DNA from: Sulfitobacter sp. DSM 110093
GTDB taxonomy: Bacteria; Pseudomonadota; Alphaproteobacteria; Rhodobacterales; Rhodobacteraceae
Direction: 5' to 3'
Assembly (NCBI RefSeq): GCF_022788715.1
Contig: NZ_CP085169.1
Coordinates: 209,773 to 273,772 of the forward strand
Length of the DNA stretch: 64,000 bases
In this document: positions 7,558-62,698 of the stretch, one piece after another
Position numbering within the stretch: position 1 is the stretch's first letter
How the letters are laid out: every line of letters starts with the position of its first letter
The notes under the pieces: generated by a model
What the model was told of the DNA's origin: nothing
Databases searched by the model: none
Seen by the model: the letters and a program-made list of their open reading frames with translations, nothing else
Position numbers and translations under genes: made by a program

Positions 7558-8007
7558 GCCCATTCTGGTATTCCATGGAAGTGCAAACTCATCATGGAGA
7601 CGGACAAATTGACGAGCAGCAGGATACAACGGTTGAGGCCCTCATGGAACATCTGATCGAGCACGGCCCCAACGACATGGCGACAGTGTTCGCGCGAGCG
7701 TTCGAGTTAGCGATGCAGATAGAGCGTGAGCGCTTCCTCGGAGCTGGCCGCTATGAGCGCACGCCCGGGCGGCAGGGGTGTGCCAATGGCTACAAGCCAA
7801 AGCGCATCGACACGCAGGCACGGTCTCGGTGCGGGTGCCGAAGACTGCCGATCATGGTGGTCAGCCGTTCTACCCGTAATCGCTGGAGCGCGGGCGGCGC
7901 TCGGTGCGAGCCGTGATGCTTGCGGTGGCTGAGATGTATGTGAAGGGCGTTTCCATACGTGAAGCTGAAGCGGTGATGCGCGAGCTCGGGATAGAGAGCC
8001 TGTCCTC

Positions 8008-9366
8008 GGGAGTGTGCGTAATTTTGTGCCCTGACGCCTTCAGTTACGCCATGGGAAAGCGTTCTTCGAACATGATGGCGAGTTGGCTTTTAACGCGGTG
8101 CCATTCACGTACAGATCGCTTCCACTCGACGGAAGTAGCATTGAGCGCCAAGTAGATCAACTTTGCCGCCGCCTCATCGCTCGGGAAGTGGCCGCGGGTT
8201 CGCACCGCACGCCGGATTTTCGAGTTCAGGGCTTCTATGGCATTCGTCGTGTAAATCAGTCGGCGCACTTCGGGCGGGTAGTCGAGAAACGGGATCACCT
8301 CGTTCCAGGCTCGGCGCCAGCTCGGTGCAATGGCCGGATAGCGCTTGGCCATATCACTCTCCTCGAACTCGGCCAGCGCAGCCTCTGCGGCTTCGACGTC
8401 CAAGGCGGTGTAGACCGCCTTCAGGGCTGTCGCCACGGCCTTGCGGTCCTTGTAGCTGGCAAAGCTCATAGAGTGGCGCAGCAAATGAACGATGCACGTC
8501 TGAACCTGGGTGTCCGGGAAAGCCGCCTCAATGGCCTGGGGGAAGCCTTTGAGGCCGTCGACCACGGCAATCAGAATGTCCTGAACGCCCCTGTGGCGCA
8601 GATCATTCAGAACCTTTGCCCAGAATTTGGCACCCTCATTGGCCTGGAACCACAGCCCCAGAACGTCCCGGGTGCCGTCTGGAAGGATCCCCAAGGCTAC
8701 GAAGACTGCCTTGTTCGAGACCGCGCCATCACTGCGGATTTTGACCCGGATCGCGTCTATTACCCGGCAGGCGCATCCGCAGGATGCTGCCGAGAGGGCA
8801 TGAACACCACTGGATAGCAGGGTTCAAGCGGGCGGTTCTGCCAGGCGGTAACCTCGTCCATCACGGCCTCAGTGATCGCCGATATCAAACTGGGTGATGC
8901 CTCAAAGCCGTAAATCTCCTCGATGTGCACTTGGATCTCACGGGTCGTCATTCCGCGTGCATACATGCTGACGATCTTGCGGTCGAACTCGGGAAAACGA
9001 CGCTGATACTTGGCGATCAACAGCGGATCAAAGGTGCCGTTGCGGTCGCGCGGAATGTCCAAGGTGACCTTCCCACTGTCGGTGGTCACAGTCTTCTGAC
9101 TGCTGCCATTACGGCGATTGGGCAGATGGTTCTGGCCCTCCTCAATCCCTTCAGCGCGCTCCTCTCCCAGATGCTCTTCCATCTCGGCCGTCAGTGCGCG
9201 TTCTGCCAATGCTTTGGTCAAATCAGCAAGAATGCCCTCCTTGCCAAATAGGTCGCCAGACGACCGGCCTTCCATCAGCTGGTCCAATAGTTCTTTGTCG
9301 ATGCTCATACGTGGGTCTCCTTATAGAGCAGTTACCACGCCAGAGCACAAAATTCAGGACAGTCCC
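8008..9366 (-). mobile_element. IS256-family element B, copy 1 (1359 bp)
   Basis: Terminal inverted repeats begin GGGAGTGTGCGTAATTTTGT on the left and, reading inward from the right, GGGACTGTCCTGAATTTTGT. The flanking 8-mers (CTGTCCTC and TTGGCCTC) match at six of eight positions, a weak target duplication. The element differs from copy 2 (50391-51749) at only a few bases and shares with it a 41-bp insertion at 8758-8798 inside the transposase gene. Confidence 0.92.
8044..9308 (-). pseudogene. Transposase of IS256 element B copy 1, broken by a 41-bp insertion
   Basis: The N-terminal half starts at 9308 (MSIDKELLDQLMEGRSSGDL) and runs normally to EPCYPVVFM, then reads into the 41-bp insertion (8758-8798) and stops at a TAA inside it. 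The C-terminal half (WFQANEGAKFWAKVLNDLRH, TTNAIEALNSKIRRAVRTRG) is open from about 8694 to 8044 in another frame. Copy 3 at 61.4-62.7 kb lacks the insertion and reads through this point as VVFMDAIRVNIRSDG, which shows what the intact protein looks like. The catalytic domain is divided, so no full transposase can be made from this copy. Confidence 0.88.
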
Positions 9367-10242
9367 TTGGCCTCCAGTCAGGTCAGCCGCGCCGCAAAGC
9401 TGCTCGATGACGAGCTCGCAGCATGGCGCAATCGGCCTCTGGGCGAGATTAAATATCTGATCCTCGACGCCCGATACGAAAAGATGCGCCATGGCGGGAT
9501 CGTGCTCGGCGTCTCTGTGGCCCTGTCGGAAGCCGAGGTGCATTGGCGCGCCTTCCTCGAGAGCCTCCAAGCTCGCGGCTTGCGCGGCGTCCAATACATT
9601 GTATCTGACGATCATGCCGGACTGCGGGCCGCGCGCAGGGCGGTCTTCGGCGGGGCCACATGGCAGCGCTGCCATTTTAACTCGCCCAAAACGCCATCCA
9701 TCACGCGCCGAACCTTGCCGTTCGCAAGCGCATCGGTGCCGAGCTCCACGAGATCTGGAACGCGGCCTCCCTCGCCAAGGCCGAAACCAGCTTGGCCGAC
9801 TTGGTCACCGAGTATCGCGATACAGCGCCGAAACTTGCTGCATGGCTGGAGAAGAATGTCCCTGAGGGCCTCACCGTCTTCACCTTGCCAAAACACCACC
9901 GCCGCCGCATGCTCACCTCCAACCCGATGGAGCGCAGCGTGCAGCAGGAGTTGAAACGTCGCACCGTTAAGGTCCGGGTATTTCCCAACGAGGTCGCCCT
10001 TGAGCGCCTGGTCAGTGCCGTACTGTTGGAGATCGACGACAAATGGGCCGCCAACACCAAGGCCTACATAATAAAGTGGGAATGCCAGGACCCGTGATCA
10101 TGGTGTCAGAGAATTTCCAGACCACAGTTTGCACAATCGACTCCCTCCCGCGATTACACCATGTGGACGCCCCTCCCGACGGCATCTCAATGTGCCATTG
10201 TGGTGAGTGTTAAAGCCACCACAAAGCCGGTGTGCTGCCTAG

Positions 10243-50367: not shown

Positions 50368-50390
50368 GGTGCAAGATGATTGAGCCGAAC

Positions 50391-51749
50391 GGGAGTGTGC
50401 GTAATTTTGTGCCCTGACGCCTTCAGTTACGCCATGGGAAAGCGTTCTTCGAACATGATGGCGAGTTGGCTTTTAACGCGGTGCCATTCACGTACAGATC
50501 GCTTCCACTCGACGGAAGTAGCATTGAGCGCCAAGTAGATCAACTTTGCCGCCGCCTCATCGCTCGGGAAGTGGCCGCGGGTTCGCACCGCACGCCGGAT
50601 TTTCGAGTTCAGGGCTTCTATGGCATTCGTCGTGTAAATCAGTCGGCGCACTTCGGGCGGGTAGTCGAGAAACGGGATCACCTCGTTCCAGGCTCGGCGC
50701 CAGCTCGGTGCAATGGCCGGATAGCGCTTGGCCATATCACTCTCCTCGAACTCGGCCAGCGCAGCCTCTGCGGCTTCGACGTCCAAGGCGGTGTAGACCG
50801 CCTTCAGGGCTGTCGCCACGGCCTTGCGGTCCTTGTAGCTGGCAAAGCTCATAGAGTGGCGCAGCAAATGAACGATGCACGTCTGAACCTGGGTGTCCGG
50901 GAAAGCCGCCTCAATGGCCTGGGGGAAGCCTTTGAGGCCGTCGACCACGGCAATCAGAATGTCCTGAACGCCCCTGTGGCGCAGATCATTCAGAACCTTT
51001 GCCCAGAATTTGGCACCCTCATTGGCCTGGAACCACAGCCCCAGAACGTCCCGGGTGCCGTCTGGAAGGATCCCCAAGGCTACGAAGACTGCCTTGTTCG
51101 AGACCGCGCCATCACTGCGGATTTTGACCCGGATCGCGTCTATTACCCGGCAGGCGCATCCGCAGGATGCTGCCGAGAGGGCATGAACACCACTGGATAG
51201 CAGGGTTCAAGCGGGCGGTTCTGCCAGGCGGTAACCTCGTCCATCACGGCCTCAGTGATCGCCGATATCAAACTGGGTGATGCCTCAAAGCCGTAAATCT
51301 CCTCGATGTGCCCTTGGATCTCACGGGTCGTCATTCCGCGTGCATACATGCTGACGATCTTGCGGTCGAACTCGGGAAAATGACGCTGATACTTGGCGAT
51401 CAACAGCGGATCAAAGGTGCCGTTGCGGTCGCGCGGAATGTCCAAGGTGACCTTCCCACTGTCGGTGGTCACAGTCTTCTGACTGCTGCCATTACGGCGA
51501 TTGGGCAGATGGTTCTGGCCCTCCTCAATCCCTTCAGCGCGCTCCTCTCCCAGATGCTCTTCCATCTCGGCCGTCAGTGCGCGTTCTGCCAATGCTTTGG
51601 TCAAATCAGCAAGAATGCCCTCCTTGCCAAATAGGTCGCCAGACGACCGGCCTTCCATCAGCTGGTCCAATAGTTCTTTGTCAATGCTCATACGTGGGTC
51701 TCCTTATAGAGCAGTTACCACGCCAGAGCACAAAATTCAGGACAGTCCC
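50391..51749 (-). mobile_element. IS256-family element B, copy 2 (1359 bp, perfect target duplication)
   Basis: Same ends as copy 1, and flanked by the exact 8-bp direct repeat AGCCGAAC (50383-50390 and 51750-51757). This marks a recent and clean insertion. It is nearly identical to copy 1 (three base differences noticed) including the 41-bp insertion at 51141-51181. Confidence 0.95.
50427..51691 (-). pseudogene. Transposase of IS256 element B copy 2, broken by the same 41-bp insertion
   Basis: As in copy 1, the N-terminal half (51691 to 51143) ends at a stop within the insertion and the C-terminal half (51077 to 50427) is open in another frame. Differences from copy 1 include His for Arg in QRHFPEF and Gly for Val in EIQGHIEE. 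Since the copy transposed cleanly yet cannot encode a full transposase, it was probably mobilised by an intact relative elsewhere. Confidence 0.88.
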
Positions 51750-52633
51750 AGCCGAACATTCCGGGTCTGTCCGTCGGCAAGCAATGTTCCCTGCTGTCGA
51801 TCTCGCGGTCGTCATTTTACTATGAACCCAAGGGTGAGAGCGAGATGAACCTCGAACTGATGCGCGTCATCGATAAGCAGTTCTTGGAAACCCCGTTTTA
51901 CGGTGTGCGCCAAATGACGTGGCACCTGCGCAATGAACAGCATCTGGTGAACGAAAAGCGCATCCGACGTCTTATGCGGTTGATGGGTCTCATGCCGATC
52001 TACCAGAAACCCAACACGAGCAAGGCGGCGAAGGGTCACAAGATTTACCCCTACCTGCTGCGGGGGCTACGGGTGGATCGGCCAAATCAAGTTTGGTGCG
52101 CCGACATCACATATCTACCGATGCGGCGCGGCTTCCTTTATCTGGTGGCCATCATGGATTGGCACACGCGCAAGGTTCTGGCGTGGCGCATCTCGAACAC
52201 GTTGGAGGCTGGCTTCTGCGTTGATGCGCTGAATGAGGCGATCCACAAGTTCGGCCCGCCAGACATAATGAACACGGACCAGGGCAGCCAGTTCACGTCT
52301 TTCGCTTGGACGAACAGGTTGCGGAGCGCAAACGTGCGCATCTCAATGGACGGCAAGGGCCGCTTCCTCGACAATATCTTTGTTGAACGGCTGTGGCGGT
52401 CACTGAAGTATGAATGCGTCTACCTGTATGCCTGGGAAACCGGGTCAGAGGCCAGAGATGGCGTCAGAAAATGGATCGAGTTCTACAACCACAAGCGCCC
52501 GCATTCTGCCCTTGGCGGCAAACCACCTGCTGTGGTCTATTGGCAGAGAATTGAAACAACCAACCCCGATCAGCAAGTGCAAAGAGTAGCTTAAACTACG
52601 CCAGATCCTGTCCAACAAATGGGGAGTAGCTCA

Positions 52634-61381: not shown

Positions 61382-62698
61382 GGGAGTGTGCGTAATTTTG
61401 TGCCCTGGCGCCTTTAGTTACGCCATGGGAAAGGGTTCGTCGAACATTATGGCGAGTTGGCTTTTAACGCGGTGCCATTCACGCACAGATCGCTTCCACT
61501 CGAAGGAAGTAGCATTGAGGGCCAAATAGATCAACTTTGCCGCAGCCTCATCGCTCGGGAAGTGGCCGCGGGTTCGCACCGCACGCCGGATTTTCGAGTT
61601 CAGGGCTTCTATGGCATTCGTCGTGTAAATCAGTCGGCGCACTTCGGGCGGGTGGCGAGAAACGGGATCACCTCGTTCCAGGCTCGGCGCCAGCTCGGGG
61701 CAATAGCCGGATAGCGCTTGGCCAGATCACTCTCCTCGAACTCGGCCAGCGCAGCCTCTGCTGCTTCGACGTCCAAGGCGGTGTAGACCGCCTTCAGGGC
61801 TGTCGCCACGGCCTTGCGGTCCTTGTAGCTGGCAAAGCTCATAGAGTGGCGCAGCAAATGAACGATGCACGTCTGGACCTGGGCTTCCGGGAAAGCCGCC
61901 TCAATGGCCTGGGGGAAGCCTTTGAGGCCGTCGACCACGGCAATCAGAATGTCCTGAACGCCCCTGTGGCGTAGATCATTCAGAACCTTTGCCCCGAATT
62001 TGGCACCCTCATTGGCCTGGAACCACAGCCCCAGAACGTCCCGGGTGCCGTCTGGACGGATCGCCAAGGCCACGAAGACCGCCCTGTTCGAGACCGCTCC
62101 ATCACTGCGGATGTTGACGCGGATCGCGTCCATGAACACCACGGGATAGCAGGGTTCCAATGGCCGGCTCTGCCAGGCGGTTACCTCGTCCATTACGGCC
62201 TCGGTGATTGCCGATATCAAGCTGGGTGATGCCTCAAAGCCGTAAATCTCCTCGATGTGCCCTTGGATCTCTCGGGTCGTCATTCCGCGTGCATACATGC
62301 TGACAATCTTGCGGTCGAACTCGGGAAAACGACGCTGATACTTGGCGATCAACAGCGGATCAAAGGTGCCGTTGCGGTCGCGCGGAATGTCCGGGATGAC
62401 CTTCCCACTGTCGGTGGTCACAGTCTTCTGACTGCTGCCATTACAGCGATTGGGCGGATGGTTCTGACCCTCCGCGACACCTTCGGCGCGTTCTTCCCCA
62501 AGATGTTCCTCCATCTCAGCCGTTAAAGCGCGTTCTGCCAATGCTTTGGTCAACTCAGCAAGAATGCCCTCCTTGCCGAATAGGTCGCCAGATGACCGGC
62601 CTTCCATCAGTTGGTCTAATAGTTCTTTGTCGATGCTCATACGTGGGTCTCCTTATAGAGCAGTTACCACGCCAGAGCACAAAATTCAGGACAGTCTC
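61382..62698 (-). mobile_element. IS256-family element B, copy 3 (1317 bp)
   Basis: Left end GGGAGTGTGCGTAATTTTGT; the right end has one changed base (AGTCTC for AGTCCC). Length is 1317 bp, exactly that of copies 1 and 2 minus the 41-bp insertion and minus one base. The flanking 8-mers (GCCACGGT and GCACATCT) do not match, so recombination has altered at least one side. More diverged from copies 1 and 2 than they are from each other. Confidence 0.9.
61418..62640 (-). pseudogene. Transposase of IS256 element B copy 3, single frameshift
   Basis: Starts at 62640 (MSIDKELLDQLMEGRSSGDL) and reads without break through CYPVVFMDAIRVNIRSDGAVSNRAVFVALAI, WFQANEGAKFGAKVLNDLRHRG and RRAWNEVIPF. One base is then missing near 61654 relative to copies 1 and 2, giving an early stop (RPKCAD). 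The remaining frame, MRRLIYTTNAIEALNSKIRRAVRTRG, continues to 61418. It shows the intact central region that copies 1 and 2 have lost. Confidence 0.88.

Follow-up and report, generated by a model that had tools for sequence, protein, structure and literature searches.

A bulged hairpin that interrupts an IS256-type transposase gene in Sulfitobacter and appears to belong to a family of mobile hairpins of Rhodobacterales

The DNA analyzed here, a window of 64,000 nucleotides from Sulfitobacter sp. DSM 110093, contains three copies of an IS256-type element, all of them broken. Two of the copies carry a 41-bp insert with a hairpin in the transposase gene, and one lacks it. The elements and their parts are as follows.

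8008..9366, gene on minus strand: IS256-type element, copy 1, 1359 bp
8758..8798: 41-bp hairpin insert of copy 1, with a TATTA linker on the plus strand
8754..8757, plus strand: CGTC immediately 5' of the copy-1 hairpin, also present in hairpin-free copy 3 and in the relative L253
8760..9308, minus strand: N-terminal half of the split transposase of copy 1, 182 aa, ending at the stop of the insert
8044..8694, minus strand: open reading frame in the C-terminal half of copy 1, 216 aa, TTG start as listed
50391..51749, minus strand: IS256-type element, copy 2, 1359 bp, within an IS3-type element
51141..51181: 41-bp hairpin insert of copy 2, identical to that of copy 1
51143..51691, minus strand: N-terminal half of the split transposase of copy 2
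50427..51077, minus strand: open reading frame in the C-terminal half of copy 2
61382..62698, minus strand: IS256-type element, copy 3, 1317 bp, without hairpin and with its own 1-base deletion

Copy 1 and copy 2 are identical except at 3 of 1359 bases (copy-1 positions 8929, 8998, and 9300), which confirms the original prediction of two near-identical elements sharing a transposase-breaking insert. The insert causes a frameshift and brings an in-frame TAA TAG onto the transposase strand, and the gene is thereby split into two open reading frames. In Pfam, the halves of copy 1 align one after the other along Transposase_mut (PF00872), the Mutator-type transposase domain of the IS256 family, which is recovered as a single piece in copy 3. 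As also predicted, copy 3 lacks the insert and is 41 + 1 bases shorter; its open reading frame of 336 aa is broken by the separate 1-base deletion. The right end of copy 3 is slightly altered as well, the alignment covering element bases 1–1357 only, and its 8-bp flanks do not match. The hairpin of the window sits directly before a GAC codon of the transposase gene, which we take to encode the first catalytic Asp. As single-stranded DNA, it folds at −10.2 and −10.6 kcal/mol on the two strands (z −2.3 and −3.1).

Searches of the rest of the genome, proposed in the original prediction for both intact copies and the 41-bp segment, gave negative results. Among the matches in the 4.34-Mb genome there was no fourth copy of the element and no remaining intact donor of its transposase; five further matches are pieces of ∼260–290 bp with 69% identity. 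At up to three mismatches, the hairpin was found in copies 1 and 2 only. A looser gapped pattern matched one extra place, a poor palindrome, and its reversed control matched twice.

Outside this genome, the picture was different. Used alone as the query, the 41 bases had matches in 105 plasmid records at a loose limit; 11 of the 60 plasmid matches listed had E ≤ 1e-3, all in Roseobacter-type genera and mostly where no gene is listed. Three matches that were inspected had fixed ends around a changing palindrome. The layout consists of a 5-base linker (CATTG or TATTA type), CCCGGCAGGCG, the variable palindrome, CTGCCGAGAGG, and a G, and its fold combines a lower stem (CGGCAG/CTGCCG) with a 3-nt bulge and an upper stem that varies. 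When the exact core was searched with a free centre, it was present in 56 of 394 genomes of Rhodobacteraceae (0 to 6 exact copies per genome), while the reversed control was present in none. The core was also found in at least 120 stretches of a genome collection, where most of the 80 titles inspected are Rhodobacterales, and in two stretches of viral contigs. A copy with an unusual linker lies on a viral contig (L164:559-600). Fourteen phage records gave only partial matches, none better than chance (E about 8). The distinct copies examined numbered 159 and later 182 at 126 host sites, the two copies of the window being counted once; these counts include two loci that are unrelated bacteria by title and have poor palindromes, probably by chance (L092 and L110). 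No Rfam family matched the hairpin at E up to 1 (window region and nine loci). No description of the family was found among the open-access papers searched, an absence that is no proof of its being unpublished.

The commonest core lengths, 35, 37, and 39, are steps of added base pairs, and the centres found most often are shared by 16, 13, and 12 host sites; that of the window occurs at 4. Across 92 distinct centres, which the search pattern left unconstrained, 477 of 523 possible pairs are formed, compared with a mean of 150 and a maximum of 178 in 200 rounds of shuffling. Judged from these sequences, pairing of the variable centre is maintained, and the 41-bp insert is one member of an unannotated family of ∼41–45 bp hairpins of Rhodobacterales.

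We compared filled and empty sites among the fetched loci, searching left and right flanks separately, and obtained 131 comparisons. In most of those inspected, the difference was 41 nt for a 35-nt core; in some it was 40 or 42, at a run of C. At one locus (L035), a ∼230-bp repeat occurs twice, once filled and once empty, with an exact junction, and a second locus (L131) is similar. The hairpin-free relatives show insertion without target duplication. The original prediction had proposed looking for the insert at other sites with a duplication of its own; the other sites exist, the duplication does not. Its suggestion that a minute mobile sequence rides on the IS gains support from the many unrelated sites with natural empty counterparts.

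The sequence CRTC directly precedes 57 of the 126 sites (background 1.2%). The linker, in turn, goes with the host base that follows the hairpin: this base is C in 22 of 24 copies with TATTA-like linkers and G in 129 of 139 copies with CATTG-like linkers (Fisher p about 1e-25 on C and G counts, in which copies are not independent). The fairer count per site gives C at 13 of 15 and G at 89 of 97. By eye, the post-hairpin host base is also present in several hairpin-free relatives, and it differs at the junction in the L021 and L022 groups. The preferred site often has the form C(A/G)TC^(G/C), entered cleanly and with no duplication, and CRTC belongs to the target, not to the hairpin. A crude test of local GC skew gave no strand preference (34 versus 29 sites).

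Most hosts are transposase genes. Transposase homology lies within 400 bp of 108 of the 159 copies compared with 31 of 400 positions drawn at random from these loci (107 copies and 29 control positions after exclusion of same-locus references), a contrast inflated by the seeding of the reference set from matches near hairpins. An unseeded Pfam census of 150 hairpin-side fragments (9 of 159 left out) yielded rve 24 times, rve_3 18, DDE_Tnp_1 15, and DDE_Tnp_IS66 10, while 150 control fragments yielded rve 3 times, rve_3 3, and Mu-transpos_C 4, the top 25 families being taken for each. All ten host reference proteins match transposase families; the IS group names given to hosts here are partly our assumption. 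After grouping of copies, 79 distinct transposase-hosted sites were left, 41 in sense and 38 in antisense orientation, and the phases were mixed among 71 cases that include open reading frames matched by themselves. Both properties were taken from homology, which replaced a codon-score frame test that was too noisy.

The ∼230-bp repeat mentioned above, which hosts 13 of the 159 copies, is structured and intergenic (GGAATCAAG...GGCGAT...GGATAAAG...GGATCGCC), gives no Rfam match, and is conserved with and without hairpin in several Roseobacter-type genera (L035:1131-1623, L069, L088, L099, L131, L149, and others). At four loci (L038, L102, L123, and L135), the hairpin is translated in frame within an open reading frame, which recalls the Rickettsia palindromic elements.

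The excess in transposase genes may reflect selection and hitch-hiking only, the hairpin inserting anywhere, dispensable multi-copy genes retaining it, and ISs copying it. Transposase genes are indeed dispensable, hairpin-carrying ISs do multiply, and the seeded control may exaggerate the contrast; however, as many as 79 distinct sites are left once copies are grouped, and harmless intergenic DNA would be expected to hold at least as many. We give this explanation a chance somewhat short of even.

What moves the hairpin was approached through its structure and through the genomes that carry it. The lack of target duplication argues against ordinary staggered DDE insertion, and the conserved bulged hairpin with its short adjoining target suggests recognition of folded single strands by an enzyme. 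We tentatively propose that a hairpin-reading single-strand nuclease, HUH-type or similar, moves the hairpin in trans. The family could also be an ordinary REP system moved by a resident Y1 (RAYT/IS200-type) transposase, as would fit a short bulged hairpin that inserts without duplication beside a short motif. In one genome (G089, locus L172), a Y1 gene has two hairpins close by that, judged by eye, resemble the family and look like separate insertions. However, Y1 genes are not associated with the hairpin (present in 7 of the 56 hairpin-positive genomes and in 31 of the 338 hairpin-negative ones, p 0.46), four genomes with 4–5 exact copies each have no Y1 gene (G377, G250, G246, and G075), the GTAG tag is absent, and a related hairpin at up to four mismatches was found near only one of eight Y1 loci tested. 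An ordinary REP system therefore seems improbable, and we rejected a resident RAYT as the mover. IS91-type Y2 genes were rejected as well, their association being weak (11 of 56 positive and 34 of 338 negative genomes, p 0.07).

We then considered how the interrupted IS256-type copies themselves came to their places. Their flanks are as follows.

50383..50390, plus strand: target duplication AGCCGAAC, left of copy 2
51750..51757, plus strand: target duplication AGCCGAAC, right of copy 2
8000..8007, plus strand: left flank of copy 1, CTGTCCTC, a decayed duplication matching at 6 of 8 bases
9367..9374, plus strand: right flank of copy 1, TTGGCCTC

Plasmids of Sulfitobacter sp. D7 and W027 (L246 and L247) carry IS3 elements that contain the uninterrupted site of copy 2, GAGCCGAACATTCC. 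Because this empty site exists, the duplication is real and not a coincidence, and the perfect 8-bp repeat announced in the original prediction stands. Copy 1 is inserted in another IS256-type gene, whose empty form in a relative from S. dubius (L248) carries CTGTCCTC; hence the right flank, TTGGCCTC, is the one that changed, by two bases. The copy-1 duplication is thus altered at 2 of 8 bases, though between the two elements no more than 3 of 1359 bases differ. Among 17 plasmid records that match the element, seven cover at least 80% of it; all seven are from Sulfitobacter, hairpin-free, and annotated as IS256 family transposase, with genes annotated as whole. The three of these that were fetched (L253–L255) have annotated genes of 1224 bp and 8-bp duplications, as copy 2 does; the duplication is decayed in copy 1 and was not seen in copy 3. 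The duplication and empty site of copy 2 show that the disabled form itself transposed, for which the original prediction had offered two routes: a transposase in trans, or active protein from the split gene.

Multiplied ISs with hairpins are not confined to this window. One genome (G250) has five hairpin-bearing IS copies with the hairpin at the same place, four of them alike on both sides and one only from the hairpin on; another (G075) has four copies with the hairpin at the same place, and a third (G302) has two copies with two hairpins each, at the same places. In the latter (L212 and L213), the host is an IS21-type istB gene at two chromosomal places, one hairpin lying just before DELGY codons. 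No hairpin-free copy of these ISs was found in the three genomes (40 of 46 candidates scored in G250), which could suggest that the hairpin is harmless to the gene. At least three of the five copies in G250 are visibly decayed around the hairpin, and IS481-type hosts at five loci (L047, L053, L071, L085, and L130) carry a second change besides it. At these five loci, the downstream sequence is swapped for a shared unrelated stretch soon after the hairpin.

Translational bypass has precedents in T4 gene 60 and the mitochondrial byp elements. If the hairpin were skipped or removed in expression in the same way, the split transposase would be active and could have moved its own copy; several of the copies first examined do lie in sense exactly before Asp codons, and the three genomes just described would fit as well. 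However, both orientations occur, 41 sense and 38 antisense among distinct sites where a byp-type element would be expected in fixed sense orientation in coding genes, which makes a spliced or bypassed segment unlikely. The phases are mixed, decayed hosts have multiplied too, and hairpins also lie in non-coding repeats. Given the orientations, the phases, and the decayed hosts, we rejected both bypass and a removal like that of an intron, and consider them very unlikely; this leaves the second of the two predicted routes unsupported. Homologous recombination as the source of the insert shared by copies 1 and 2 would fit their near identity, but it is very unlikely as well: each copy interrupts a different host gene that is otherwise continuous and whose empty site is known, and the 8-bp duplications at their flanks are perfect or decayed.

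Some multi-copy ISs with hairpins are otherwise decayed, which makes spread in trans the most economical interpretation. If the ISs multiplied in trans, or while intact copies were still present, both the decayed ISs and the window are accounted for. The predicted transposase in trans, present or past, is the simpler of the two routes; this genome has no intact copy to provide it, though relatives annotated as intact exist on Sulfitobacter plasmids.

Taken together, the comparisons make it probable, in our judgment, that the insert is a mobile hairpin and that the ISs it disables spread in trans. The hairpin inserts without target duplication, often at C(A/G)TC^(G/C) and mostly in transposase genes. 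In the window, it landed just before the GAC codon of an IS256-type transposase. The interrupted copy could make no whole protein but later moved, giving a normal 8-bp duplication; the transposase most likely came from an intact relative that has since been lost. A bolder and rather doubtful extension is that a single-stranded hairpin transposon without a known resident transposase preys on ISs, prefers the transposase genes of many IS families, has a linker that sets the next base of the target (C or G), and acts as a parasite or silencer of mobile DNA. The family also offers a clear example from nature of broken insertion sequences that nevertheless moved. Natural pairs of filled and empty sites are numerous in it, and a target motif and a rule connecting linker and target are available, so that its enzyme could be sought and its mechanism tested in harmless marine bacteria.

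The host element resembles the IS256 family in its PF00872 transposase and 8-bp duplication and departs from it in that copies 1 and 2 are interrupted by the hairpin and copy 3 is frameshifted. Elements of the IS200/IS605 type make no target duplication, recognize a short target on one side, and have a subterminal hairpin. The hairpin family likewise inserts without duplication beside a short motif, seen at 57 of 126 sites; unlike them, it has no gene in the element and only a single hairpin. MITEs of DDE elements are gene-less and nested in other elements, whereas the hairpin makes no duplication and has no demonstrated terminal inverted repeats with a known IS.

The dissemination of REP-type palindromes is called poorly understood in one report (PMC8266576). 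With the GTAG REPs and their TnpA_REP/RAYT (PMC8266576, PMC3733652), the family shares a bulged hairpin of 20–40 nt and a proposed single-strand mobility. It differs in the terminal GTAG (1 of 159 left-hand tetranucleotides, no linkers), in the association with Y1 RAYT genes (7/56 versus 31/338 genomes), and in having few exact copies per genome. Also near are the CGTC-tagged REPs of Alphaproteobacteria, for which no dedicated transposase is reported (Di Nocera et al. 2013, PMC3733652); both groups are short alphaproteobacterial palindromes with a CGTC-like end, lie inside and outside genes, and lack a dedicated transposase. By that published description, the CGTC REPs have stems of 8–9 bp starting with AT, loops of 4–5, and a tail CCA, whereas the hairpin family has the CGGCAG/CTGCCG lower stem, the 3-nt bulge, and the variable upper stem. 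Moreover, CRTC is already in the empty site and in hairpin-free relatives of the hairpin family, whereas the tag is described as carried by the repeat in CGTC REPs (PMC3733652); the CGTC tag of alphaproteobacterial REPs is possibly target rather than element. On sequence grounds, the family appears to be a new form of REP-like mobile hairpin, in neither the GTAG nor the CGTC superfamily.
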